Positions 22,518 through 35,752 of a stretch of DNA of 64,000 nt are shown piece after piece. The notes beneath the pieces are model-generated. The model searched no databases. It saw only the letters and a program-made list of their open reading frames with translations, and was not told the origin of the DNA. The stretch is from a marine actinobacterium PHSC20C1 (GTDB taxonomy: Bacteria; Actinomycetota; Actinomycetes; Actinomycetales; Microbacteriaceae), in the NCBI GenBank assembly GCA_000153145.1, contig CH672415.1, positions 1,608,767 through 1,672,766 of the forward strand, given 5' to 3'. Each line of letters starts with the position of its first letter. Position 1 is the stretch's first letter. The position numbers were made by a program, and so were the translations under genes.

Positions 22518-22590
22518 GGCTCTGTAGCTCAGTTGGTAGAGCGCACGACTGAAAATCGTGAGGTCACGGGATCGACGCCCGTCGGAGCCA
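22518..22590 (+). tRNA. tRNA-Phe (GAA)
   Basis: Acceptor GGCTCTG pairs with CGGAGCC, anticodon loop CTGAAAA in a CACGA/TCGTG stem, discriminator A, no encoded CCA. The T-loop reads ATCGACG, so the nearly universal T at position 54 is an A here, while the T-stem ACGGG/CCCGT is intact. Confidence 0.93.
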
Positions 22591-22592
22591 CT

Positions 22593-22677: not shown

Positions 22678-23319
22678 GTGGCTAATAACACTTCCCGAAG
22701 CGGAAACCCTGCAGTACGTGCGGGCACACATGGAAAACCGCAAACAGATGTGAGCGCGAAAGTCGTCGCGTGGATAGCGCTCGGGATAGCACTGCTTTCG
22801 GCCGCAGGCACGTGGGCGCAAGTCGTGACGGATCGCGAGGCGATCTCAGAGCAGCTCACGATGCGTACCGAAGTACGCGCGTATGACGAGCTCGCTAAAG
22901 AGTACGGAGAGGTCGTAAATAAGGGTCAACGCGCGCCAGCCCTAGAAAACCACGACTCGGCTCTCTATGTAATTGCGAGCGTCACCAACTTGGGAAAAGG
23001 TAGCGGCGTAATCGCCGGGATGGGCCTGAGTACCGCTGATGGCGGACTCGTCAACTTCGAGGGCCCGACCTGCCAGAATTTATCGAGGCAAGCGGACAAT
23101 GCGCCGTGCTACCTTCCCATGACGATTCCAGCAGGCGAGATCATCAAGTTCTATCTCGCAGTTCCCGAAGATCGACTTATCGCATTCGGCTGCGCCGAGT
23201 CGGAAGCCGCTATCGAAGCCTTTGTTACAGACTCAACAGGTCAGAAATTTGTGGTGAATAGCGAGGTGCGTGCGCCACGGTCGGACGCACCGTGCGTGAG
23301 TAGCATCCCTTCTGACTAG
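22678..23319 (+). CDS. Orphan single-pass membrane protein
   Basis: About 213 residues from a GTG at 22678. In-frame codons further upstream lie inside tRNA-Phe and its terminator and are unlikely; no good ribosome site is visible for any start. One hydrophobic helix (about residues 28 to 50) is followed by a soluble region with four Cys residues that could form two disulfides outside the cell (Thr-Cys-Gln, Pro-Cys-Tyr, Gly-Cys-Ala, Pro-Cys-Val). I do not recognise the family. It stands alone between the tRNA terminator and a gene remnant, so it may belong to a transferred patch. Confidence 0.6.
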   Translation: MANNTSRSGNPAVRAGTHGKPQTDVSAKVVAWIALGIALLSAAGTWAQVVTDREAISEQLTMRTEVRAYDELAKEYGEVVNKGQRAPALENHDSALYVIASVTNLGKGSGVIAGMGLSTADGGLVNFEGPTCQNLSRQADNAPCYLPMTIPAGEIIKFYLAVPEDRLIAFGCAESEAAIEAFVTDSTGQKFVVNSEVRAPRSDAPCVSSIPSD

Positions 23320-23338
23320 AATTCTCACTCAGATGCAA

Positions 23339-23518
23339 CTACGGAGCTGCGACCTCGAAGATATTGCAGGCGCCCTGCCCGCTTTCTAACCAAGTCAAGA
23401 ACCGCTGCCGGCGCTTCTTACTCGAGCCATGCGTCCAGGTTTCCAGAGCTACTTGACCCTGTGTTGACTCCTTGATGCGGTCGTCGCCGACAGCCGATGC
23501 TGCGCTCAGAGCATCCGT
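23339..23518 (-). pseudogene. Detached 3' end of a zinc metallopeptidase gene
   Basis: Read on the minus strand this stretch encodes 59 residues and a TAG stop that match residues 230 to 288 of the intact metallopeptidase encoded at 31268-32134. By my hand count 44 of 59 residues and about 156 of 180 bases are identical, with no gaps. A TAA stop stands immediately upstream and no start is present, so it cannot be a complete gene. Similarity ends exactly at the stop codon on one side and runs into an inverted-repeat element on the other. It lies in the same orientation as the intact gene, about 7.9 kb away, across the glucoside operon. Confidence 0.85.
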
Positions 23519-23535
23519 TTAGCTGTCTACCGTCA

Positions 23536-23627
23536 CGGAAACTCAGGAAATCCGAATACCACCTCGCGGTGAATCCCGAGTTATTGGTGTTGAGTTTGCC
23601 GCACCACGCGATTTTCCTGAGTTTCCG
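23536..23627. repeat. Inverted-repeat element, copy 1
   Basis: A 92-base unit with ends CGGAAACTCAGGAAA and the inverted match TTTCCTGAGTTTCCG, 15 paired bases plus an extra A in the right arm. A second copy with the same arms but largely different interior lies at 35627-35722. The unit sits just downstream of the ROK regulator gene and directly next to the metallopeptidase tail remnant. It could be a small non-autonomous mobile element or a structured terminator; no target duplication is evident. Confidence 0.75.
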
Positions 23628-23675
23628 AAGGTGCGAGAGCGATTTGCTGACCAACGCTGTCTCTCGCGAGCGCCT

Positions 23676-24893
23676 CTAGGCCAGAGAAGCGGAGCTTTTT
23701 CGCGGCGCCGCGAGTAACGCCTCGAGAGGCATGATGGCTGCACCCAGCGCGACAGTGTCACCGCCGAAACTGCACGCGTGCAGCGAAAACTGTCCCCCTG
23801 GTCGCGCGAGTGCCTCTGCGCGGGTTGCCTCCTCCATGCGAGACGCGAGAGCTTCCATAAGCCTCAGCCCCACCCAGCCGCCAATAATTACGCGCTCAGG
23901 ATTGGTGAGGTTGACGAGCCCGCCCAGCGCAGAGCCCAGCGTCTCGATGAGCTCATCGACAACCCCGACCGCAACCGGATCATGTGACTCGAGCAGTTGC
24001 CCAACAGCACCCCAGCCGGAACCGTCAAAGACGCCACCAGCTTCGCGCCACAATTCGAGAATCGCATCCGCACCGAGGTACGCCTCAACACATCCGCGGC
24101 CACCGCAGCGACAGAGGCGCCCGTTGCGGACAATCTTGACGTGACCCCACTCCCCAGCACTGCTGTTGAGTCCTCGGGCGAGTTCACCATTCGACACAAT
24201 TGCGAGACCGACACCGCGACCAAGCAGAACCACGAGTGCTTCATTCACACCCCGTGCCGCGCCATCCCACAATTCGGCCATAGCTTGGGTCTTAGCGCCA
24301 TTCTCGGCAAAAACTGGAATGTCGTGAGAGACGAGATCAGCGACAGGGATAGGCGACCAACCAAGGCTCTGGGCGTACAGAACTTGGCGGCCCTCAGCAT
24401 CCGACTCCACAATTCCGGGTAGGCCTAGCCCGATGCCGATCATGCGGTCCCACGCTGCTGGATTCCGCTCACGCAAAGCGTTCAACGCTTCATCAAGATC
24501 GGCAGCGATCGCCTCAATGGGCTCACCCTCACGGCCGCCGCGAAATTCCCGATCAATGCGCGTCATCGATAGATCAAACAACTCGACCGCGACACCACGC
24601 TCACCAACATCCGCGCCCAGAAAATAGGCGCCGCTGGGGTTGGGGGCCAACAAAGTTACGGGTCGTCCACCGCTCGAGGCTACTGAGCCGGCCTCCATGA
24701 CGAGCCCCTCCGAAATGAGCTCGGAGATCAGATTGGTGACTGAAGCGACCGAGAGTCCCGACTCGCGCGCGATGGCCGCACGCGATGTCTCTCCCGTAAG
24801 AATCACACTGCGCAGCGCCTGCGAGCGATTACGTTGACGCACATCGCTTACCGTTGCCGGCGCCGAAGTGGTGAGTGCGATACGCCCGGTCAT
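23676..24893 (-). CDS. ROK-family transcriptional regulator
   Basis: 405 residues. An N-terminal winged helix-turn-helix (about residues 15 to 75, with Ser-Arg-Ala-Ala-Ile-Ala-Arg-Glu-Ser-Gly-Leu-Ser) precedes a ROK sugar-kinase-like domain containing the zinc motif Cys-Arg-Cys-Gly-Gly-Arg-Gly-Cys-Val-Glu. Regulators of this kind (NagC/XylR type) bind a sugar or sugar phosphate. It is the last gene of the beta-glucoside operon and is the obvious candidate for controlling it. I start it at ATG 24893; a GTG at 24911 would overlap the GH5 gene. Confidence 0.9.
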   Translation of the reverse strand: MTGRIALTTSAPATVSDVRQRNRSQALRSVILTGETSRAAIARESGLSVASVTNLISELISEGLVMEAGSVASSGGRPVTLLAPNPSGAYFLGADVGERGVAVELFDLSMTRIDREFRGGREGEPIEAIAADLDEALNALRERNPAAWDRMIGIGLGLPGIVESDAEGRQVLYAQSLGWSPIPVADLVSHDIPVFAENGAKTQAMAELWDGAARGVNEALVVLLGRGVGLAIVSNGELARGLNSSAGEWGHVKIVRNGRLCRCGGRGCVEAYLGADAILELWREAGGVFDGSGWGAVGQLLESHDPVAVGVVDELIETLGSALGGLVNLTNPERVIIGGWVGLRLMEALASRMEEATRAEALARPGGQFSLHACSFGGDTVALGAAIMPLEALLAAPRKSSASLA

Positions 24894-24904
24894 AAATCCA
24901 GACC

Positions 24905-26461
24905 TTACCAAGTCTTGTCGCCTCCCGACGGGTAGATCCTCGATACCGTTGTTTCGGCGGTGGCGATGATCCGGATGCCGCGGGCAGTCTGCTCGACGCG
25001 TACGGCAGCATCCCGACCCTCGTCGTCGACCACGTGGGCGCCAGAGGAGCCCACCATCTCATACTCGAGCCAGTCTCCCTCGGAGAGATCTACAACCAGT
25101 TCTTCAGCGATTCCGTAGGCACGGCCATCCGTCTGCTCAAAGGGATTTGCGGGATTGCCGCCCTCAATAGCCCAGCGCAACGGCACAGTGTCATCGCTTC
25201 GGATCGCGTCGACACCGCCTGTCACAGCAATCGAATAGGACTCGCCAGATCCGCGATAGCCGTAGCCCCACACGGGTACAACGGCCGGCCGTGAAGCAAG
25301 AAGTGCCGAAACAACGTCAGGCTGCCACAGGCAGTTCTCAATCCTCATCGCATCAAGTAGGTCGTTAAAGACAGTCTTCGCTTCAGCAGGAGTTATTGCT
25401 GAAGGGTCACCGATGCTGGCAACGACACGGTCCCAGCCTTTTGGCGCAATAATCGACGCAGCCGAAGTGCGGGTGTCGATCTTCTTCCAGGGCCAAAAGT
25501 TCCAACCGATACCGTGCGACTCGTAGAGGCGGAATGCCGCATACAACCACTCGAGGGTGTTCTCGCCTCCTTCGCCCATGTAAATGGGCAGCCCGAGACG
25601 ATCCCGAACCTCAAGGAACGCGGAGATTGATTCGGTGTCTGGCGAGGACCAATACTTATGAAATTGGAGCAGCGAATTGTCGTCCCACACCTCGGTGAAG
25701 ATGTCCCAGTTCGTGGCCCAGTGCGCACCCTCATAAACAATGAGATGGTCAGGGTCAATCGCGCGGATCTCGCGGGTGAGGTCACGGTAGAGGTCAGTGA
25801 GTGCATCGGCGTAGGTGTGCTGCCACTCGTTCGGCAGTGGTTCGTTGAGCAGGTCGTATCCCATCACGACCGTCTCGTGGCGATAGCGTGTCGCAAGATC
25901 TTGCCACAACCGCACCGTGAGCTCTCGATAGCGCGGCTCCATGAACAACTCAGGCAGATTGTGCGGCGAATCATCAATGTTGGTGCCGGTCTGACCACCC
26001 GGCGCCCCATGCAAATCGAGCATCACCCACAGCTTGTGTTCACGGCACCACTCAATGAGCCGGTCGATCATCGTGTAACCAGCTTCGATCGGCTGACCGT
26101 TCTCATCCTGAATCGCGCGCGAATTGATTGGCAACCGCACGTGGTCGAAACCGGATGCCGCAATGAGAGCGATGTCAGCCTCAGCAATAAAGTTCGTCCG
26201 AAAGCCCTCCCAGAATCGCTCCGCCTCCGCAGCTCCCAGGAGGCGCTCTGTTAGCCGCTCGATTTCCCGAGGAGACTCCGCTCCTGGACCGAACTTCCAC
26301 ATGTAGCCCTCTGGCAGCATCCAGTTGCCCAGCCCCACCCCGCGAAGGAGCAACTCGCGGCCCGAGCCATCGACAAGCCGAGCATCTTTCGCACGCACAA
26401 ATCCTTCGAAGGATGCGGGACGGGGTTCGAACGCCGACGTGGCGAGCATGAGATCAGTCAT
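24905..26461 (-). CDS. Glycoside hydrolase family 5 protein, cytoplasmic
   Basis: 518 residues. The GH5 barrel holds the acid/base Glu207 in Asn-Glu-Pro-Leu-Pro and the nucleophile Glu297 in Met-Gly-Glu-Gly-Gly-Glu, with Trp-Asn-Phe-Trp-Pro-Trp near 340. The last 90 residues contain Gly-Asp-Trp-Leu-Glu-Tyr-Glu, similar to the carbohydrate-binding modules of families 6/35. No signal peptide is visible, so it should act in the cytoplasm on imported oligosaccharides, perhaps beta-1,3- or beta-1,4-linked glucosides; the linkage cannot be told. It lies 12 bases behind the second permease gene. Confidence 0.85.
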   Translation of the reverse strand: MTDLMLATSAFEPRPASFEGFVRAKDARLVDGSGRELLLRGVGLGNWMLPEGYMWKFGPGAESPREIERLTERLLGAAEAERFWEGFRTNFIAEADIALIAASGFDHVRLPINSRAIQDENGQPIEAGYTMIDRLIEWCREHKLWVMLDLHGAPGGQTGTNIDDSPHNLPELFMEPRYRELTVRLWQDLATRYRHETVVMGYDLLNEPLPNEWQHTYADALTDLYRDLTREIRAIDPDHLIVYEGAHWATNWDIFTEVWDDNSLLQFHKYWSSPDTESISAFLEVRDRLGLPIYMGEGGENTLEWLYAAFRLYESHGIGWNFWPWKKIDTRTSAASIIAPKGWDRVVASIGDPSAITPAEAKTVFNDLLDAMRIENCLWQPDVVSALLASRPAVVPVWGYGYRGSGESYSIAVTGGVDAIRSDDTVPLRWAIEGGNPANPFEQTDGRAYGIAEELVVDLSEGDWLEYEMVGSSGAHVVDDEGRDAAVRVEQTARGIRIIATAETTVSRIYPSGGDKTW

Positions 26462-26473
26462 GGGTTTCTTTCG

Positions 26474-27313
26474 TTACTTAAGACCGGAGAGGGCGAAGCC
26501 CTGGATGACGTAGCGCTGGAAGACGATGAAGACGATGAGGATCGGTATGACCATCACCGACGCCGCGGCCATTTGCAGCGAGGGGTTCACGGCGAGCTGT
26601 TGGTTGAGGAGGGCTAATCCGACCGAGAGCGTGTACAGCTTCTGATCAGACGCAATGATGAGTGGCCACAAGAAGCTGTTCCAACCCGAAATAAATGTCA
26701 GAACGATTTGCACAGCAAGGATCGGCTTAGACATGGGCAGCACGATCTGCCAGAACGTGCGGAACTCTCCAGCACCGTCGAGGCGCGCGGCCTCGAGCAT
26801 CTCCGTGGGAATCGTGGTCATGAATTGTCGGAACAGGAAGATCGCAAATCCGCTCACCAACGTCGGGAGGGCTATACCGAGCAGGGTGTTTGTGAGCTTC
26901 ATGCCGTTGAGGATCAAATAGGTCGGAATCATCGTGACTTGGATCGGGATCATCATCGTCGCGAGAACGAGAAAGAACATCCACTTGCGGCCTCGGAAAT
27001 CGAACTTCGCAAACGCGTACCCTGCCATCGCCATGAACATCAAGCCGATGAATCCGATCAGAACGACCAAGATGGTGTTGACGAGGTAGCGCCCGAAATC
27101 CAACTCAGTGAAGAGCATCTGAAACCACTCAAGAGTCGGCGCCTGGGGCAGGATCGTTGGTGGAAACGTCACCGATTCTCGCTGCGGCTTGAACGCTGTC
27201 GTGAGCATCCACAAAAAAGGGAACGCCGTTATCAGGGCGCCGATCCCCAGCGCGATACCGATCGTTACGGTGAGCGCGCGTCTCCGCTTGGCGTGAGTGC
27301 GATCAGTAGTCAT
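26474..27313 (-). CDS. Sugar ABC transporter permease, MalG-type
   Basis: 279 residues with six hydrophobic segments and the EAA loop Glu-Ala-Ala-Arg-Leu-Asp-Gly-Ala-Gly-Glu. This is the MalG-like partner of the next-upstream permease, with which it overlaps by 11 bases. Typical for CUT1 oligosaccharide importers, whose MsmK-type ATPase is often encoded elsewhere; none is present in this operon. Confidence 0.9.
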   Translation of the reverse strand: MTTDRTHAKRRRALTVTIGIALGIGALITAFPFLWMLTTAFKPQRESVTFPPTILPQAPTLEWFQMLFTELDFGRYLVNTILVVLIGFIGLMFMAMAGYAFAKFDFRGRKWMFFLVLATMMIPIQVTMIPTYLILNGMKLTNTLLGIALPTLVSGFAIFLFRQFMTTIPTEMLEAARLDGAGEFRTFWQIVLPMSKPILAVQIVLTFISGWNSFLWPLIIASDQKLYTLSVGLALLNQQLAVNPSLQMAAASVMVIPILIVFIVFQRYVIQGFALSGLK

Positions 27314-28181
27314 CGTCGGCCCGTCTCACTCGCAATTGGATGAGTGTGATCACGGCGATGATCGCGAACAGCACGATCGAACCGGCGCTGGCATACCCGA
27401 ACTGGTTGAGCCGGAATCCCTCTTTGTAGAGAAAGATCGACGCCGAGGTGGTGGCACCGAGCGGCCCACCGTCGGTAAGCACGAAAGGCTCGTCGAAGAA
27501 CTGGAGCCACGCAATAGTGGTGGTGACGCTCACGAAGAAAATCGCAAATCGCATGAGCGGGATCACGATCGAGAAGGTCTTCTTCCATTCCCCAGCCCCA
27601 TCAAGCGATGCCGCTTCTAGATACTCCTTCGGTACGCCCTGAAGTGCGGCAAGGAAGATGATGATATTGAGCCCGGTTCCGCGCCAGACTGCGACAAGCG
27701 CCACAGAAAACTTTGCCAAGATCGGGTCTGACAACCACTGCACCTGGGGAACTCCTACAAGTGAGAACAGGTAGTTGAGCAGTCCGAATTGAGTGTTGTA
27801 GAGGTAACCCCAGACAAGCGAAATCGCGACGATCGCGGTGATTGCTGGGATGAAATAGAACGCACGGAGCGATCGGAAGAATCTGCTCTGACTGTGGTTC
27901 AGCAGTAACGCGACACCGAGTGACAGGATCACGATGGCCGGCACGCCGAATACTGCGAACAGACCGGTGTTGCCGATGGCCTGCCAGAAGTCCGGGTCTG
28001 CGAAAAGTTTTGTGTAGTTGTCGATGCCAATGAACTCGACGTTGTTCCAGTCGGCAAAGGCCGAGATGTTCATGTTTGTCGTGCTGATAACAGCGGCAAC
28101 AAGGATCGGGAAGATCCCGAAGGTGATGAGGAGGAGCATTGCGGGCGACACGAACAGGTAGGGAGTAAGGCGATTGCGCAC
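27303..28181 (-). CDS. Sugar ABC transporter permease, MalF-type
   Basis: 292 residues, six hydrophobic segments, EAA loop Glu-Ala-Ala-Ser-Leu-Asp-Gly-Ala-Gly-Glu. The GTG at 28181 has GGAAGGA seven bases upstream and gives the usual short Arg-Asn-Arg N-terminus; a frame further out to 28337 lies in the binding-protein gene. Forms the channel with the MalG-type partner. Confidence 0.9.
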   Translation of the reverse strand: MRNRLTPYLFVSPAMLLLITFGIFPILVAAVISTTNMNISAFADWNNVEFIGIDNYTKLFADPDFWQAIGNTGLFAVFGVPAIVILSLGVALLLNHSQSRFFRSLRAFYFIPAITAIVAISLVWGYLYNTQFGLLNYLFSLVGVPQVQWLSDPILAKFSVALVAVWRGTGLNIIIFLAALQGVPKEYLEAASLDGAGEWKKTFSIVIPLMRFAIFFVSVTTTIAWLQFFDEPFVLTDGGPLGATTSASIFLYKEGFRLNQFGYASAGSIVLFAIIAVITLIQLRVRRADDDY

Positions 28182-28245
28182 CGTGCTGTCCTTCCTGTTC
28201 GTGTCGCGTCGCGACGCCGAGATTGTTAGTGAGAGGTGTTGCTTG

Positions 28246-29487
28246 CTAGTTAATCGTGAGACCAGCGGTTGTGGAGTAGAGGCCGTCAAGTGACGACTTC
28301 GTGTCCGCTCCCGTGAGCACGATTGCGTTGAGAGCATTGAGCAGTTCGGTTCCCACTGCGCCGTCCCAATTTGAGACGAGCGGAAGAACCTTGGCCGTCT
28401 TGAGCTGGTCGGTGTAGACCTGCACGTTGGGGTCGCTGTTCAGGTCCCCATCTTCAAGCGCGGACGACACGGTCGGCAGTTCACCGGTCATGCTGTACCA
28501 CTCGAGCTGCTGCTCTGGCTGCGAAACGTACTCGAGAAGATCGAGCGAGGTTTCCTTCTGATCGGTGTTGAACCACACGCCGAGGTTCGAGCCGGCGAAC
28601 AGCGAGATGGAGCCACCGTCGCCTGCAGGCAGCGGGCTTGCTTGCCACTTGCCGTCGAGCTCTGGAGCCGAATCCGCGATTCCTCTACCTAGGTAGGGTC
28701 CGCTCACGAGCATCGGCGCAACACCGGAGATGAAGCCCTGAGTCTGGTCGAAGTCGCCATTCACTGGCACGCTTCCGTCTGCGTAGAGCCCGGTGTAGAC
28801 GTCGACAGCTTTCTGGAACTCAGGAGTATCGAAGTTGACGTTTCCGTCAGCGTCGATGACCTCGCCGCCCATACTCCAGGTCATCTCGATCGGCAGCGGT
28901 GCATCCCACTGAGGAATGTAGTAGCCGTACTGGTCATCGCCGCGTGCCGCGAGAGTCTTAGCGTCAGCTCGTAGTTCGTCCCACGTGGCCGGAGGTGCGT
29001 CAATGCCGGCTTCCGAGAGGATGTCGGTACGAGTGAAGAGCACGCGGGTATCGCTGGTCCAAGGAACACTCACAATCTCTCCGCCGACCGAAGTCGCTGT
29101 GCCCGACACTCCTGCGGGGAAGTTCGCGGGGTCAATGCCGGGGTGGTTCGCGATTTCGTCGTCGAGGGGCAGGAGGGCTCCGGCATCCGCGAAGGTTCGC
29201 AGCTTGGAAAGCCCAATCTGGAGGATGTCAGGCCCGGACCCGGACGCGACAGCAGTGGTGAGTTTTTCGTCGATCGAATCCCACGGGATCGCTACGACCT
29301 CTACCTCGATGCCGCTGTCAGCGACAAGCATCTCGAAGTTTGCACCCGAATCGCCCATTACCCAGACGGTGAGTGGACCTTCGGCGTCGCCGCTTCCGGC
29401 TGCAGATGTTGTTGAGCACGCGCTCATGCTTATGGTGAGCCCCACTGCCGCAACGGCGGCGACAACGGAGGTTGCTGTTCTCTTCAT
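28246..29487 (-). CDS. Sugar ABC transporter substrate-binding lipoprotein
   Basis: 413 residues. A signal peptide ends in Met-Ser-Ala-Cys, a lipobox that anchors the protein to the outer face of the membrane. The mature part is a family 1 solute-binding protein with a Gly-Pro-Tyr-Leu-Gly-Arg-Gly segment and aromatic residues that stack on sugars. ATG 29487 follows GAAGGAA at good spacing. Between the GH1 and permease genes, it probably binds cellobiose, laminaribiose or a similar beta-glucoside; ligand inferred from neighbours. Confidence 0.9.
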   Translation of the reverse strand: MKRTATSVVAAVAAVGLTISMSACSTTSAAGSGDAEGPLTVWVMGDSGANFEMLVADSGIEVEVVAIPWDSIDEKLTTAVASGSGPDILQIGLSKLRTFADAGALLPLDDEIANHPGIDPANFPAGVSGTATSVGGEIVSVPWTSDTRVLFTRTDILSEAGIDAPPATWDELRADAKTLAARGDDQYGYYIPQWDAPLPIEMTWSMGGEVIDADGNVNFDTPEFQKAVDVYTGLYADGSVPVNGDFDQTQGFISGVAPMLVSGPYLGRGIADSAPELDGKWQASPLPAGDGGSISLFAGSNLGVWFNTDQKETSLDLLEYVSQPEQQLEWYSMTGELPTVSSALEDGDLNSDPNVQVYTDQLKTAKVLPLVSNWDGAVGTELLNALNAIVLTGADTKSSLDGLYSTTAGLTIN

Positions 29488-29564
29488 TGAGATTCCTTCT
29501 TCTCGTTTTTTGGTGTGCTGTGCAGTGGTGCATGGGCGAGTCATCCAGACTCGCACCATCCGCG

Positions 29565-30983
29565 TCAGGCTGTTGTGTACGCCACGACTTCCTGATGCTC
29601 TGTGATGAGGCGCCGATACCAGTGCGCGCTCAATTTCGGGATCCGCTCCTGGGTGCGGTAGTCGACCCATACAAGGCCGAAACGTTTGCTATAGCCTTCC
29701 GCCCACTCGAAATTGTCGAGGAACGACCACGCGTAGTAGCCGCGAAGATCAACACCAGCAGCGATCGCCTCGGCGGCCGCGCCGAGGTAGCCGCGCAGAT
29801 AGGCGATTCGCTCGGTATCAACGACGTCGCCGTTGGGGTCCACATAGTCTTCGTAGCTCGCACCGTTCTCGGTGACGTAGAGCGGAACGCTAGTGAACTC
29901 GCGCGAGACCCTGGTCAAGACTGCGGTGAGCGATTCGGGGATGACCGACCAACCGAACGATGTCGTTGCCGGTTCGGCTGGCATTTCGGCGACGCCGAAT
30001 GGTGCCGTCTCGTCATGAGACGCGATCACTCGCTGGTAGTGATTGATGCCAGCGAAGTCGGTGGGTGTGGAGATGATCTCGAGATCGCCCTCCTGCACTA
30101 CATCGCTCAGCCCCCGGCTGCCAAGGGTTTCCCACACGGCATCCGAGTAAGCGCCAAGGTAGACGGGGTCAAGAAAGACGCGATTGCTCGAGGCGTCAAG
30201 GCGTACGACTGCTGCCGCGTCATCCGGCGAATCGCTCGCGGGAATGATGTCGGTCACGATATTGGTGATGCCGACGGATGCGCTGGGCATCGCCACTCGG
30301 ATCCCAGCAACTGCGAGCCCATGGGCGAGGTTGAGGTGGTGCGCGGCGTGAATCGCAGCCCGATAGTCGGTGCGGCCGGGAGCGTGCGCGCCATTTCCGT
30401 AGCCGAGGAAGGCACTGCACCATGGCTCATTGAGCGTCAACCAGTCAGTGGCAAGGTCGCCAAGCGCTTCGACAGTTCTAGTAGCGAACTCCGCGAAGCG
30501 GTAGGCGGTGCCACGTACAGGCCAGCCGCCCTCATCCTCGAGAGGCTGAGGCAGGTCCCAGTGGTAAAGAGTAACTAGCGCTCGGATGCCGCGTTCCGCG
30601 AGCCCTTTGAGCACGTCGCGGTAGAACGCGACGGCGATTTCGTTCAACTCACCGCGTCCGCTTGGCTGGAGGCGTGACCACGAAACGGAGAGCCGGTAGT
30701 CGGTGACGCCGAGACTCTTCAACAGGTCGAGGTCTGCTTGCCAACGGTGGTAGTGGTCACACGCAATGTCACCCGTATCCCCGTGCAGGCTGAGACCAGG
30801 CGTGTGAGAGAAGGTGTCCCAGATGCTCGGTCCACGACCGCCTTCGAATGCAGCGCCCTCGATTTGGTATGCCGCTGTCGCGAGCCCCCATCGGAAGTCT
30901 GTTGGGAAGGTGCCGAGGGTCTCGAGCGAAGGCTCAGCCGTGAGCCGTGCGGAGGGAGAGGTCTCGGTCATCGTTGATCGCAT
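29565..30983 (-). CDS. Glycoside hydrolase family 1 beta-glucosidase
   Basis: 472 residues, full GH1 length. Acid/base Glu186 lies in Thr-Leu-Asn-Glu-Pro-Trp and nucleophile Glu372 in Tyr-Val-Thr-Glu-Asn-Gly. The N-terminal Phe-Arg-Trp-Gly-Leu-Ala-Thr-Ala-Ala-Tyr-Gln is the second GH1 signature. No signal peptide, so it hydrolyses imported disaccharides in the cytoplasm. It is the first gene of the operon, about 35 bases after the predicted transcription start. A second ATG at 30971 is an equally possible start. Confidence 0.94.
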   Translation of the reverse strand: MRSTMTETSPSARLTAEPSLETLGTFPTDFRWGLATAAYQIEGAAFEGGRGPSIWDTFSHTPGLSLHGDTGDIACDHYHRWQADLDLLKSLGVTDYRLSVSWSRLQPSGRGELNEIAVAFYRDVLKGLAERGIRALVTLYHWDLPQPLEDEGGWPVRGTAYRFAEFATRTVEALGDLATDWLTLNEPWCSAFLGYGNGAHAPGRTDYRAAIHAAHHLNLAHGLAVAGIRVAMPSASVGITNIVTDIIPASDSPDDAAAVVRLDASSNRVFLDPVYLGAYSDAVWETLGSRGLSDVVQEGDLEIISTPTDFAGINHYQRVIASHDETAPFGVAEMPAEPATTSFGWSVIPESLTAVLTRVSREFTSVPLYVTENGASYEDYVDPNGDVVDTERIAYLRGYLGAAAEAIAAGVDLRGYYAWSFLDNFEWAEGYSKRFGLVWVDYRTQERIPKLSAHWYRRLITEHQEVVAYTTA

Positions 30984-31024
30984 TCGGGTTGACGGTTCTG
31001 TGATTCTGGCTTATTTCAATACTT

Positions 31025-31052
31025 ACTATAACCAGTGTCAAAACTATGTCAA
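31025..31052 (-). promoter_or_regulatory. Sigma-70-type promoter of the glucoside operon
   Basis: Read on the minus strand, a perfect TTGACA at 31052-31047 and TATAGT at 31030-31025 are 16 bases apart. Transcription would begin near 31018, about 35 bases before the first start codon of the GH1 gene. The stretch is markedly AT-rich against its surroundings. Confidence 0.75.
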
Positions 31053-31057
31053 GAGCA

Positions 31058-31071
31058 ACTTCAGATGAAGT
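31058..31071. promoter_or_regulatory. Palindrome next to the glucoside operon promoter
   Basis: ACTTCAGATGAAGT is a 14-base palindrome (six-base arms, two-base centre) ending five bases upstream of the -35 box. A good candidate regulator site, for example for the ROK protein of the same operon; the assignment is inferred. Confidence 0.4.
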
Positions 31072-31267
31072 GCGACGAATACATCACGACCAGCGGGACC
31101 GGCCAACCCGCAAGTCTCTACGAGTGCAACATTCTGGATTGCAGCGGCAGCGAAACTCGGCGCATTCGCCGAGCACGCCAAGTTAACCGATGGAGAACGT
31201 GCCCTCCGGCGCTGTCACTCCTGAAGACGAGAGGAGTCGCGATTCACCCTCGTCTCCAACACCCTTA

Positions 31268-32134
31268 CTACGGAGCCGCAACCTCGAAGGTATTGCAGGC
31301 GCTCGGCCCACCATCTAACCCGATCATGAACCACTGCTGGCGCTTCTCACTCGAACCATGCGTCCAGGTTTCCGGAGTGACTTGACCCTGAGTCGACTCC
31401 TGGATGCGGTCGTCGCCGACAGCCGATGCTGCACTCAGAGCATCCGCAATCTGCGCCTCGGTCACGGTGTCGAGAAAGAGCACACCGTCGTCGTTCTTGA
31501 TTGTGGATGCTGCACCGACCCATGCACCTGCGAAGCAGTCTGCCTGCAACTCAAGACGCACCGAATCGGATGATGGCCCTGTGGCCTGCCGGTCGATGCC
31601 GTCCATGATTCCGGTCGAATTTTGGATGTGATGACCCCACTCATGCGCGATGACATACATTTCGGCGAGCGGCCCACCCGTGGAACCGAATCGGCTGCGG
31701 AGATCGTCGTAGAACGCAGTGTCCACGTAGATGGTCTCATCAGGCGGGCAATAGAACGGACCGCTCGCGCTCGTGGCACCGCCGCATCCGGTGCTCACTT
31801 GACCCGTGAAGAGCACGACATTAGTGGTGCGGTATCCCTCAACCTGACCCTCCCAATAGGTATCGAGCGAATCTGCCGCTCCGGCGATGCGGCAATCGAT
31901 GCTGCTGTTCGCCGCCTCGGCCGTTGTGCATTCGGAAAGTGGCTGTCCCTGTTGTTCCTGCCCGCCGGTCGTTCCGCCGCCCACAAGCCCGGTTAGATCA
32001 ACTCCGAGCAACTGGGACGCAATAATCAGGCCGATAACAAGCAAACTGCCACCGCCACCTACGGCAATTCCGGTATTGCGCCCGCGTCGCGAAACCTTGT
32101 TTGGGTTGATGCGGGCGTCGTCGTTGAACGTCAT
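31268..32134 (-). CDS. Neutral zinc metallopeptidase, YpfJ family
   Basis: 288 residues. A basic start is followed by one membrane helix (about 24 to 46), a Gly/Gln-rich linker and an extracytoplasmic peptidase domain. The zinc motif His-Glu-Trp-Gly-His sits at 164 to 168. Several Cys residues could form disulfides. The family is widespread but has no established substrate. A separate copy of its last 59 codons lies at 23339-23518. The 31073-31267 stretch downstream contains only a weak inverted repeat (AGACGAG/CTCGTCT). Confidence 0.9.
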   Translation of the reverse strand: MTFNDDARINPNKVSRRGRNTGIAVGGGGSLLVIGLIIASQLLGVDLTGLVGGGTTGGQEQQGQPLSECTTAEAANSSIDCRIAGAADSLDTYWEGQVEGYRTTNVVLFTGQVSTGCGGATSASGPFYCPPDETIYVDTAFYDDLRSRFGSTGGPLAEMYVIAHEWGHHIQNSTGIMDGIDRQATGPSSDSVRLELQADCFAGAWVGAASTIKNDDGVLFLDTVTEAQIADALSAASAVGDDRIQESTQGQVTPETWTHGSSEKRQQWFMIGLDGGPSACNTFEVAAP

Positions 32135-32195
32135 AGAGAGAATTTACTACCAGCCGCGACGTCGTATCCTGAGTTTTTGCAGGTAACGTCAGAGG

Positions 32196-33107
32196 ATGCC
32201 CCTCAGCCGCTCCGGACTCCTGTGGGGACTAGTAGGAGTGATCGCATTCTCGTTCACTCTGCCCTTCACCCGCGTGGCCGTTGGCGGCCTATCCCCCCTA
32301 TTTATCGGATCTGGCCGAGCTGTGATCGCTGCCCTCCTAGCCATTGCGGCACTCGCCATCACCCGTCAGCGGCTGCCAAGCGGGCGACAGTGGGTCCGCT
32401 TGCTTGCGGTCGCCGGCGGCATCGTTGTCGGCTTCCCTTTGCTCACGTCGTATGCCTTGGTCACCGCACCGGCGAGCCATGGGGCGGTCGTCATTGCGCT
32501 GCTGCCCGCCGCCACAGCGGTGCTGGCGGTTATTCGTGCCGGAGAGCGACCGCCACTGTCTTTCTGGGTGCTTGCCGCAATCGGCGCCGTTGCCGCTCTC
32601 GGATTTGCCTCGATCCAGGGTGGGGGCTTCGGTCAACTCGGGCTTTCCGATCTACTCCTCTTCGGTGCCGTCGTTGCCGCAGCAATTGGTTACGCCGAAG
32701 GCGGCCTCCTCGCGCGTGAACTCGGTGCCTGGCAGACGGTGTCCTGGGCGCTTGTCGTAGCAGCGCCATTCATGATTCCGCTCGCGGTGTTCACAGCGAT
32801 CCAAGAGCCGCCGACCGCCGAGCCAATCGAGTGGGCCGCGTTCGGATATTTGGCCGTAGTAAGCATGTTTCTCGGCTTCTTCGCTTGGTACCACGGGCTC
32901 GCCATTGGGCCAATGGCGCAAGTCAGCCAAGTGCAACTCATTCAACCGGTGTTGAGCATCACGTGGGCAGCCCTGATCCTGGGGGAGGAACTAACCGTTC
33001 CAACAGTCATCGGAGGAGCTATCGTGATTCTCTGCGCCGGAGTCGCGGTTCGCATCCGTCTTGATCGCAGCGCACTGCTAACCTCTGCTCGTGACTCACG
33101 GGGCTGA
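32196..33107 (+). CDS. EamA/DMT family transporter
   Basis: 303 residues with ten hydrophobic segments in two EamA repeats, the layout of drug/metabolite transporters (YdcZ/RhaT superfamily) that export amino acids, nucleotides or metabolites. The Leu-Phe-Ile-Gly-Ser-Gly-Arg segment after helix 2 and the Pro-Val-Leu-Ser-Ile-Thr-Trp stretch near the end are typical. Substrate unknown. Its last 17 bases overlap the sigma factor gene that follows. Confidence 0.88.
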   Translation: MPLSRSGLLWGLVGVIAFSFTLPFTRVAVGGLSPLFIGSGRAVIAALLAIAALAITRQRLPSGRQWVRLLAVAGGIVVGFPLLTSYALVTAPASHGAVVIALLPAATAVLAVIRAGERPPLSFWVLAAIGAVAALGFASIQGGGFGQLGLSDLLLFGAVVAAAIGYAEGGLLARELGAWQTVSWALVVAAPFMIPLAVFTAIQEPPTAEPIEWAAFGYLAVVSMFLGFFAWYHGLAIGPMAQVSQVQLIQPVLSITWAALILGEELTVPTVIGGAIVILCAGVAVRIRLDRSALLTSARDSRG

Positions 33108-33690
33108 CGACGATCCACGAGCAAAGCACTTCGCTGCCCTGCTTGCTGCCGCGCAGGCTGGAGCCGAATGGGGATCCACGACCCTCTGGGTCGAGTATTC
33201 GCCAGCCGTAACCGCATTCCTCACAGCACGCGGCTCGCGCGAACCGGAGGATCTCAGTAGCGAGGTTTTTCTCGACGTATTCGATCGGTTGCCGCAATTC
33301 GTCGGCGACGAAACGCAGTTCCGGTCGTTCATTTTTTCTGTTGCGTACCGACGTCTCGTTGATGAGTTTCGCAAACGGGCCCGGCGGGGAGAGAGCGAGG
33401 AGTGGACCGCGGATCGCGACTCGAATAGCTCACCCAGTGCAGAGGAAGAAATGCTCAGCCACCTGGAGGACGACACAACCCTCTCACTCCTCAACAGCCT
33501 CCCCTCGGATCAGCGCGACGTGATGGTGTTGCGCATAATCGCGGACCTGACAGTGGACCAGATTGCCACCGTGATCGGGAAACGTGCCGGGGCGGTCAAA
33601 GCCCTACAACGACGCGCCCTCGAACGATTGAGAAAGAAAGTTTCCCCAACCCGTACCCCTGCGAGGCTCTCAAGCGATGGCGTGAAGTGA
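33091..33690 (+). CDS. ECF-type RNA polymerase sigma factor
   Basis: 199 residues with sigma region 2 (Asp-Leu-Ser-Ser-Glu-Val-Phe-Leu-Asp-Val-Phe, Phe-Arg-Ser-Phe-Ile-Phe) at about 45 to 105 and region 4 (Leu-Pro-Ser-Asp-Gln-Arg-Asp-Val-Met, then a helix-turn-helix) at about 133 to 185. It redirects RNA polymerase to a specialised regulon. The GTG start lies inside the transporter gene, so the two are probably co-translated. The next gene, one base after its stop, encodes the probable anti-sigma partner. Confidence 0.9.
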   Translation: MTHGADDDPRAKHFAALLAAAQAGAEWGSTTLWVEYSPAVTAFLTARGSREPEDLSSEVFLDVFDRLPQFVGDETQFRSFIFSVAYRRLVDEFRKRARRGESEEWTADRDSNSSPSAEEEMLSHLEDDTTLSLLNSLPSDQRDVMVLRIIADLTVDQIATVIGKRAGAVKALQRRALERLRKKVSPTRTPARLSSDGVK

Positions 33691-33691
33691 G

Positions 33692-34429
33692 ATGAGAAAC
33701 AAACGAATTTCCGACAGGGTCGCGCAGGCGATTCTGTCTGGACGCGCGCCGGAATCGCGGCCGGATCTGACATCGCTCGCCAACTCGATCGCAGAGTTTC
33801 GCGAAGCGGCCTACGAATCGACTGCCCGGCCGTCAGAAGAGTTGATGGTGCGGCTAGGACTCACCGAAACTCCGTCTGGATCATCTCACCATGAATCGCT
33901 ACCGACAATCGGGGCGAGTAAGAGGGGGAGAACAATGTTTTCATGGATTGCAGGCTTGGGGATAGCCTCAAAGATCGCGCTCGGCGCGACTGTGGCAGTT
34001 GCCGCAACGGCGGGGGCCGGAGCGGGAGGAATTTTGCCAGTCGGCGCGCAAGACGCGTTCGACACAGTGATATCAACAGTCGTAACCGAAACCGAAGATG
34101 GCGACGAGTCGACCGAAGACACCACCACGACACCGGAGTCTGAACCGGCAGACGAAGTCGAAGAGACTGAAGAAGCCGAAGCGACCGAGCACCCTGACAA
34201 CTTCGGCGGATGGGTCTCAGAGCGCGCCAAGGATCCAGACAAGGTCGGCCGCACCTTCGGTGCCGAGACCTCCGAGGCTGCACACGAGAAAAACAAGAAG
34301 TCCGAATCCGAGTCACCCAGCATCGATCACGACGAGTCAGAAGAGGCTGACGACACTAGTGACGACAGCGGCAACAGCGGAAGTCACGGCAAGTCGGAAA
34401 ACAAGCAGGGCGGCAAGTCAAAACCGTAG
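33692..34429 (+). CDS. Probable membrane anti-sigma protein with long acidic tail
   Basis: 245 residues. The N-terminal 75 residues are cytoplasmic and helical, one membrane segment spans about 82 to 112, and the remaining 130 residues are extremely rich in Glu, Asp, Ser and Thr, then Lys at the end. It starts one base after the ECF sigma stop. Position and topology suggest an anti-sigma factor, but no zinc-binding anti-sigma motif is visible and the N-terminus does not match a family I know. The disordered acidic tail would lie outside the membrane and could sense cations or the wall. Confidence 0.6.
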   Translation: MRNKRISDRVAQAILSGRAPESRPDLTSLANSIAEFREAAYESTARPSEELMVRLGLTETPSGSSHHESLPTIGASKRGRTMFSWIAGLGIASKIALGATVAVAATAGAGAGGILPVGAQDAFDTVISTVVTETEDGDESTEDTTTTPESEPADEVEETEEAEATEHPDNFGGWVSERAKDPDKVGRTFGAETSEAAHEKNKKSESESPSIDHDESEEADDTSDDSGNSGSHGKSENKQGGKSKP

Positions 34430-34448
34430 CCATGGACCCAGGGATCAA

Positions 34449-34526
34449 GCGGATGCCGTCGCGCACGGACGTCGGCCAGAAGTAGTCGACGACTTTTAGT
34501 TCCGAGCCGGGCTCTACGGCATCCGC
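34449..34526. repeat. Distant 11-base inverted repeat
   Basis: GCGGATGCCGT and its exact complement ACGGCATCCGC are separated by 56 bases, after the anti-sigma-like gene and before a small frame. It could close a long RNA stem, but GGATGC and GCATCC are very common in this genome, so chance is a serious alternative. Confidence 0.3.
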
Positions 34527-34791: not shown

Positions 34792-35589
34792 ATGCGTGAA
34801 TCCAGAGATGTAATCAGGCAGATCACCGTCGCTGCGAGCGCGACCTTTGCCCTCATCGGTGCGTTTGTCGGATCGGGCGCTGCTGGTGGCACCCCGATTC
34901 AGGATGCTGCGGGTGGCGCGCTCAGCGCCGACGCCACTGTCATCGCTCCCGCCGGCTCCGCTTTCGGCATCTGGAGCGTCATCTACCTAGGACTCATCGC
35001 CTACGCGGTCTGGCAGATGCTGCCTAAACAATCCAGCACCGAACTGCACCGCCGCGTCGGCTACTGGGTAGCTGCGTCACTCGTACTCAACGCAGCCTGG
35101 ATTCTTTCCATCCAATATGGGCTGCTCGCGCTCAGCGTTCCCGTGATTATCCTGCTACTGATCGTGCTCATTCAGGCATACCTCATCACCGTGAACCTGC
35201 CAGCGGCAGGAGCCATCGATGCAATCGTCACCGACGGCACGATCGGCCTCTACCTCGGATGGGTGTGCGTTGCGACGGCAGCGAACATCACAGCGTGGCT
35301 GAATGCCATCGGATTCACTGGCTTCGGCATCCACGAAGATGTCTGGGGCGTCGCCATCATTTTTGTCGCCGGAGCTGTAGGCATTGCGCTCGCTGCCCGC
35401 GGGCGCGCACACTTCGCTCCCTCGCTCTCGCTCAGCTGGGGACTCGCCTGGGTTGCCGTTGGCCGCCTCACCGGTGACCTCATCTCACAGCCCACAGCGG
35501 TCGCCGCAATCGTCGCGGTCGCCGCCGTGCTCACGAGCGCAGCGGTTTTCGCCATCGCCCGGCTGCGCGCCGAACAAGCCGCCAGGTAA
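34792..35589 (+). CDS. Multi-pass membrane protein related to tryptophan-rich sensory proteins
   Basis: 265 residues with about eight hydrophobic segments. Ala-Phe-Gly-Ile-Trp-Ser-Val-Ile-Tyr near residue 60 and Asn-Ala-Ala-Trp near 104 recall the TspO/MBR-like family that binds porphyrins or steroids, but the protein is longer than classic TspO. ATG 34792 has a perfect AAGGAG six bases upstream; an ATG eight codons further out at 34768 is less likely. No linked genes suggest its role. Confidence 0.75.
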   Translation: MRESRDVIRQITVAASATFALIGAFVGSGAAGGTPIQDAAGGALSADATVIAPAGSAFGIWSVIYLGLIAYAVWQMLPKQSSTELHRRVGYWVAASLVLNAAWILSIQYGLLALSVPVIILLLIVLIQAYLITVNLPAAGAIDAIVTDGTIGLYLGWVCVATAANITAWLNAIGFTGFGIHEDVWGVAIIFVAGAVGIALAARGRAHFAPSLSLSWGLAWVAVGRLTGDLISQPTAVAAIVAVAAVLTSAAVFAIARLRAEQAAR

Positions 35590-35626
35590 ACAACGCCGCC
35601 AGTTCGCGTAAGCGCAGGCTAGGCGT

Positions 35627-35722
35627 TTCGGAAACTCAGGAAATCTGAACGCATCTGCGTCTCAGCGCCCCAGTTCGCCGCGACCGCAACGCCCCACCGC
35701 GAGAATTTCCTGAGTTTCCGAA
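35627..35722. repeat. Inverted-repeat element, copy 2
   Basis: A 96-base unit between convergent genes, with arms TTCGGAAACTCAGGAAAT and ATTTCCTGAGTTTCCGAA pairing over 18 bases. The arms match those of copy 1 at 23536-23627 while the interiors are largely different. As RNA it would fold into one long stem with a loop of about 60 bases, and it may terminate both flanking genes. Confidence 0.75.
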
Positions 35723-35752
35723 GGGTGAAGGGGATTGACGGGGCCCGATGAG

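Follow-up and report, generated by a model that had tools for sequence, protein, structure and literature searches.

Two decayed gene tails and the probable order of events around a beta-glucoside operon beside tRNA-Phe in a marine actinobacterium

In the marine actinobacterium PHSC20C1, a sugar operon lies between an intact metallopeptidase (MP) gene and a decayed second copy of the 3' end of that gene, which raises the question of whether the repeat arose when the operon arrived. The locus suggests that direct repeats on either side of a gene module can resemble an integration footprint and yet probably postdate the module. The window, i.e., the whole stretch of DNA that was analyzed, comprises 64,000 nucleotides (contig CH672415.1, positions 1,608,767 to 1,672,766 of the forward strand); its relevant features are collected in Table 1. 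Its genome, designated G000, is one of a genus set of 27 genomes; MP genes were searched for in 98 relatives and in G000 itself.

Table 1. Features of the operon locus, with positions counted from the first letter of the window
Feature	Position	Strand	Basis or remark
tRNA-Phe (GAA), left hotspot border; tRNA-Glu and tRNA-Asp upstream	22518..22591	+	tRNA search
ORF, no assigned function (mechanical ORF starts at 22558)	22690..23319	+	no Pfam family, no NCBIfam family
Decayed repeat of the MP gene end, 59 codons plus stop (remnant)	23339..23518	-	BLASTN, alignment, tree
Inverted repeat CGGAAACTCAGGAAAT...TTTCCTGAGTTTCCG	23534..23632	.	few copies per genome
ROK-family regulator, last operon gene	23676..24911	-	family search
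GH5 (cellulase-family) glycosidase	24905..26461	-	family search
ABC permease	26474..27313	-	family search
ABC permease, GTG start chosen as in G005	27303..28181	-	family search, comparison with G005
Extracellular solute-binding protein, approximate start	28246..29490	-	family search
GH1 beta-glucosidase, first operon gene	29565..30983	-	Pfam, NCBIfam
Decayed 3' end of FGE-sulfatase-like gene, right operon edge, also in G005	31112..31223 (approx.)	+	nhmmer
Intact neutral zinc metallopeptidase (YpfJ / KPN_02809 family)	31268..32134	-	family searches
EamA transporter, ECF sigma factor, further ORF (segment)	32150..34526	+	between MP and TspO-family gene
TspO/MBR-family gene, right hotspot border	34792..35589	+	comparison of regions

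The first-pass annotation had described the MP tail as recurring without gaps and in the same orientation at the far side of the operon, and this description was borne out. BLASTN aligned positions 23338 to 23517 with 31267 to 31446 (157 of 180 ungapped identities, E = 8e-55), and codon alignment in the MP frame reproduced the annotated counts, with identity at 156 of 180 base positions and at 44 of 59 residues (15 changed). The gene was assigned to Pfam Zn_peptidase and NCBIfam NF050010, and a search of its own genome (2.77 Mb, one contig) revealed just these two copies of the tail. The remnant frame meets a stop upstream, as annotated (a TAA, one stop inside). Both reported limits of the similarity were likewise recovered: past the MP stop codon, identity drops to 5 of 40 bases (p about 0.62 in a shuffle test with gaps), and the operon-side end lies near the inverted repeat, where a GTCACGG match in register at 23532 to 23538 hints that MP homology may once have extended to that repeat. 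Compared with eight relatives, 14 of the 24 differences between remnant and gene are new in the remnant, 3 are new in the gene and 7 are undecided, while five states are common to the two copies and absent from all eight. The spread of the differences over codon positions 1, 2, and 3 (9/5/10) matches the expectation for sequence without constraint; 11 of the 14 remnant-specific changes fall at positions 1 or 2, and the remnant presumably has no present function. The 45 bases at its operon-side end hold 2 of the 24 differences (p about 0.03 to 0.04). In the trees, the remnant is sister to the MP gene of its own genome (support 100/97 with the full gene, 89/91 with the tail alone), and in the tail-only tree the remnant branch takes up almost all of the change (0.17 versus 0.003). 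These trees were calculated without G003, G004, G007, G008, G013, G015, G019, and G022, in which the start motif was not matched, without G024, which is distant, and without G021.

The annotated sugar operon with its regulator was also confirmed; its six genes are arranged in the order GH1, binding protein, two permeases, GH5, and ROK, corresponding to the conserved gene set and order of GH1/GH5 beta-glucoside ABC operons with a ROK regulator. It presumably serves as an ordinary sugar-uptake and hydrolysis operon. A near-full-length GH5 match is present in 12 of the 27 genus genomes. In G005, a near relative of G000, the same six genes occupy the same locus in the same order and orientation (87% nucleotide identity over 7.4 kb), without an MP gene and without an MP tail. 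Ten other genomes were examined, of which seven have all six genes in this arrangement; G015 has the same order with the ROK gene cut by a contig end, G024 has five of the genes, GH1 being missing, and in G017 the ROK gene is located at the opposite end. In these ten genomes, i.e., those other than G000 and G005, no MP, M23, TspO-family, or EamA gene was found beside the operon. A plasmid origin of the operon was considered and rejected, as no plasmid record covers 80% of it; among the matches listed (8 of 86), coverage was 7 to 11% and concerned the GH1 part.

The right edge of the operon carries a second scar. Between the operon and the MP gene lies what is left of an FGE-sulfatase-like gene (Pfam PF03781; FGE gene in the following), namely its 3' end, detected by nhmmer with E values of 6.5e-7 in the window (over 104 kb) and 2.9e-12 in G005, the protein-level match in the window being weak (best E 0.72). 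The full gene has no match at 1e-20 in G000 and G005; matches are present in 14 of the 27 genomes. Upstream of GH1, this scar is reached in G000 as well as in G005, the alignment being rough there, so that the junction between operon and FGE gene appears to be common to the two genomes. Of 78 sites aligned between the two FGE scars, 35 differ, a level of divergence that fits a shared scar of considerable age. The scar in the window shows three to four gaps relative to intact genes, whereas the MP remnant has no indel. Both tails point outward from the operon.

Thirteen regions with a tRNA-Phe gene, the window included, were compared. All 13 share the left flank, consisting of M23 and the tRNA-Glu, -Asp, and -Phe genes, and 11 of 13 have the TspO-family gene on the right; the exceptions are G008, where it was not found, and G012, where the roughly 31 kb following tRNA-Phe do not contain it. 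The contents in between differ, such that the same flanks hold several different cargos. The MP gene directly follows tRNA-Phe in G025 and G016 (distances of about 0.1 and 0.3 kb) and lies at 1.4 kb in G026, 2.4 kb in G006, 2.8 kb in G010, 11.8 kb in G011, and 27.4 kb in G020. An FGE gene adjoins it in six genomes, on the tRNA side in G006, G010, G011, and G020 and on the TspO side in G025 and G026. Longer cargos occur in G011, G020, G017, G005, G012, and G001; their names (transporters, enzymes, phage-tail-like, transposase-like) are readings of the translations. One transposase-like ORF lies about 13.7 kb after tRNA-Phe in G012. The segment with the EamA and ECF sigma factor genes is missing between the MP and TspO-family genes in G011 and G020. 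Left of the operon, matches to the unassigned ORF in relatives (E 5.8e-13 or weaker) begin at the 5' part that overlaps the tRNA gene. The MP gene was unmatched in 7 of the 27 genus genomes, and five of the 98 relatives (G017, G044, G055, G074, and G082) gave two MP matches; as duplicated tails these were rejected, since they are either pieces of a single gene, broken or located at a contig end, or distant matches of low strength. These comparisons support reading the interval from tRNA-Phe to the TspO-family gene as a hotspot in which metabolic operons are exchanged as cargo without an integrase of its own, and they mark a locus of the genus where such operons are gained and swapped.

Several side observations were made. 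Directly after tRNA-Phe, G001 (L082) carries a cassette of roughly 16 to 18 kb that reads like phage-tail genes and is possibly a contractile injection system; three of its proteins were scanned, of which one gave a tail-sheath match below threshold (20.8 bits, the cut-off being 31.4) and two gave none. In G017 (G017:C1:1313994-1314215), the MP gene has lost an internal part, and its two ends now form an open frame of 78 codons. The ECF sigma factor of the window has its best genus matches, 54 to 67% identical, in outer relatives.

The absence of an integrase, as stated in the first-pass annotation, was upheld for PF00589 (tyrosine integrase), which has no match inside the 13 compared regions. 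Matches occur elsewhere in all 27 genomes, in G000 at 0.35, 0.67, 0.72, 1.07, and 1.19 Mb, the window being located at 1.61 to 1.67 Mb. The term integrase-free is used here because of this PF00589 search; for other mobile genes, PF00239 was searched in the own genome, with two matches, both below 0.08 Mb. The tRNA-Phe gene was rejected as an attachment site, each of the 13 regions having one tRNA-Phe; a partial match to the tRNA region in G012 takes in the sequence preceding the tRNA gene together with the 5' part of that gene but does not include its 3' end. The inverted repeat was rejected as a mobile element, the exact pattern with 12-base arms occurring in 6 of the 27 genus genomes with one to three copies each (L175-L183) and with differing loops. 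A second copy in the window is located at 35624 to 35725; the window copies have conserved arms of 16 to 18 bases and differing loops of about 60 bases. Relative to shuffled sequences, the copy at 23534 folds better (z -3.2) and that at 35.6 kb does not (z -0.3). A copy in G012 adjoins its tRNA-Phe, and looser relatives are present in the hotspot of several genomes.

The order of events was approached through the decay of the two scars. At 4-fold sites, G000 and G005 differ at 479 of 1,291 positions in the operon and at 309 of 738 in five flanking genes (summed; "MFS" rows, in a wrong reading frame, were left out), and this similar divergence indicates that the residence time of the operon is close to that of its flanks. 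Among sites that do not vary in six relatives, 20 of 135 have changed in the MP remnant, 10 of 135 in the intact MP gene of the window, and 27 of 85 in the window FGE scar, the difference between remnant and FGE scar being significant (p = 0.004); the FGE scar of G005 has changed at 17 of 67 such sites (p = 0.08 versus the remnant). The six are those of the eight MP relatives with a near FGE gene, i.e., all except G016 and G023. The remnant is thus less decayed and gap-free compared with the FGE scar, which makes the tail copy look younger than the arrival of the operon, although gene conversion from the intact MP gene could mimic such youth. At the 4-fold sites of the remnant alone, too few for the purpose, 6 of 24 differ, and the age contrast is not significant (p values of 0.29 and 0.14). 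Two pseudogene scars of different age would thereby render the event order readable in an integrase-free hotspot, which presence and absence alone cannot do.

On balance, we consider it somewhat probable that the operon first replaced an FGE gene and that ordinary recombination later attached the MP fragment to the left operon edge, where it decayed. As a first step, which the comparisons support, the beta-glucoside operon would have entered before the G000 and G005 lineages split, replacing the FGE gene except for its 3' end. In a second step, supported less surely and confined to the G000 line, an MP-tailed fragment would have been joined to the left edge of the operon beside the inverted repeat. 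The likely route would be that, on the tRNA side, DNA was exchanged by homologous recombination with a close relative carrying MP beside tRNA-Phe, as in G025, G026, and G016, and we infer a non-homologous junction at the inverted repeat for the right-hand join; the headless MP fragment would then have decayed unconstrained. Among the compared genomes no donor allele for this step was seen; the scars are short. The left-flank exchange envisaged for G000 appears to have happened in another form in G005, where the left operon flank has also been replaced, over about 10 kb partly shared with G012. G012 complicates this two-step history. The flank tree places G000 with G005 and G012 (98/98) and groups G012 with G005 (100/100), G012 and G001 being represented by left-flank columns only (36% and 35%); G012 has an intact FGE gene and no operon (no GH5 match). 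Hence, either G012 swapped its cargo back, or the operon and the scar reached G000 and G005 otherwise. A further point against the two-step history is that the MP tree groups G000 with G016 (82/94) and not with G010, the partner that the flank tree would predict.

The main rival follows from the outward-facing tails, which would also result from a single replacement of the heads of divergent MP and FGE genes in the order found in G025 and G026. In an ancestor with tRNA-Phe, MP on the minus strand, and FGE on the plus strand, the operon would have removed both facing heads in one event, the intact MP gene on the right being a second copy or a later gain. We regard this as possible but rather unlikely. 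It predicts the truncated, outward-pointing tails on either side of the operon, and the required gene order exists. A later gain of the MP gene would also fit the rejection of a joint grouping of the G000 and G010 MP genes (p-AU 0.023, for a pair chosen after the trees were seen). It predicts equal decay of the two tails, however, whereas changes are roughly twice as frequent in the FGE scar, which also contains gaps, a discrepancy that gene conversion could undo; moreover, the remnant is sister to the MP gene of G000 rather than to those of G025 and G026, and G005 lacks an MP tail, though its left flank has been replaced. Less probable still is a local duplication following the same first step, in which template switching near the inverted repeat would have copied about 180 MP bases without any outside DNA. 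In its favor, the remnant lies against the inverted repeat, and change in the tail-only tree is concentrated on the remnant branch. Against it, the copy stops at the stop codon, where there is no reason for copying to halt but where conservation would be expected to cease if a once intact gene had stood there.

The entry of a module at the 3' end of the MP gene with reconstitution of that end, as the first-pass annotation had suggested, is very improbable. An element inserted site-specifically would have supplied a new gene end and displaced the old one to 23339. The arrangement, in which an intact gene and a displaced 3' end form a direct repeat around cargo, matches this, and the fewest differences are indeed found toward the operon, the side on which a crossover core would be expected. 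Against this, G005, an operon-bearing relative lacking the second tail, of the kind the annotation had named as contradicting its proposal, has the operon at the same locus; the operon abuts the FGE scar rather than the MP gene, and the remnant is less decayed than that scar. Integrase matches are lacking in the 13 regions. Nor did the proposed MP bracket recur around other cargo: no second MP tail was found in the 26 other genus genomes, and a repeat scan of 80 named loci, some on short contigs, gave three matches of 30 to 46 bases, too short for tails. The annotation's second suggestion, recombination between paralogues, holds insofar as the remnant and the resident MP gene are sisters, the remnant being decayed, with the modification that it was probably made after the operon had arrived. 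Insertion of a circle carrying FGE and MP tails by a single crossover would account for both scars; it was also rejected, since it predicts an FGE tail left of the remnant and nhmmer found none there.

Among known systems, the closest likeness is to the hotspots described by Oliveira et al. (2017), in whose account (PMC5635113) many hotspots lack mobile elements and have frequent homologous recombination in flanking core genes, an integrase is encoded in 45%, and tRNA or tmRNA genes are present in 29%. Variable cargo, conserved flanks, tRNA genes at the border, the lack of an integrase match, and decayed junction pieces are shared features; the present set has one genome per species. The MP/FGE locus fits this known integrase-free kind. 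With the islands integrated at tRNA or protein genes, as presented for Islander (PMC4383910) and dusA (PMC4482086), it shares a gene and its displaced fragment in direct repeat around cargo as well as a tRNA neighbor. An integrase-borne island would have a direct repeat arising with its cargo, an element starting at the restored gene end, and an integrase gene within. Here, G005 has the operon without the repeat, the remnant looks younger (gene conversion being possible), the FGE scar intervenes between operon and gene, no integrase match was obtained in the 13 regions, and tRNA-Phe is not duplicated. The combination of a homologous and a non-homologous join proposed for the left operon edge in G000 and G005 resembles homology-facilitated illegitimate recombination as outlined in PMC3240628, with the difference that it is deduced here from end products alone. 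Among the papers listed on Salinibacterium, genomic islands, and tRNA, none has a title concerned with this locus, which is no proof of its absence from print.

More tentatively, and with some doubt on our part, the ends of the FGE and MP genes might be recurrent recombination handles beside tRNA-Phe, at which cargo is swapped one side at a time and datable scars are left; if so, tail scars would give the order of cargo arrivals. In G001 (L200), two FGE-sulfatase-like genes in direct repeat (83% identity over 868 bases) flank the TspO-family gene and three further ORFs, and the second copy is broken by two stops; this broken direct repeat would be a further case of the gene-end-handle sort.
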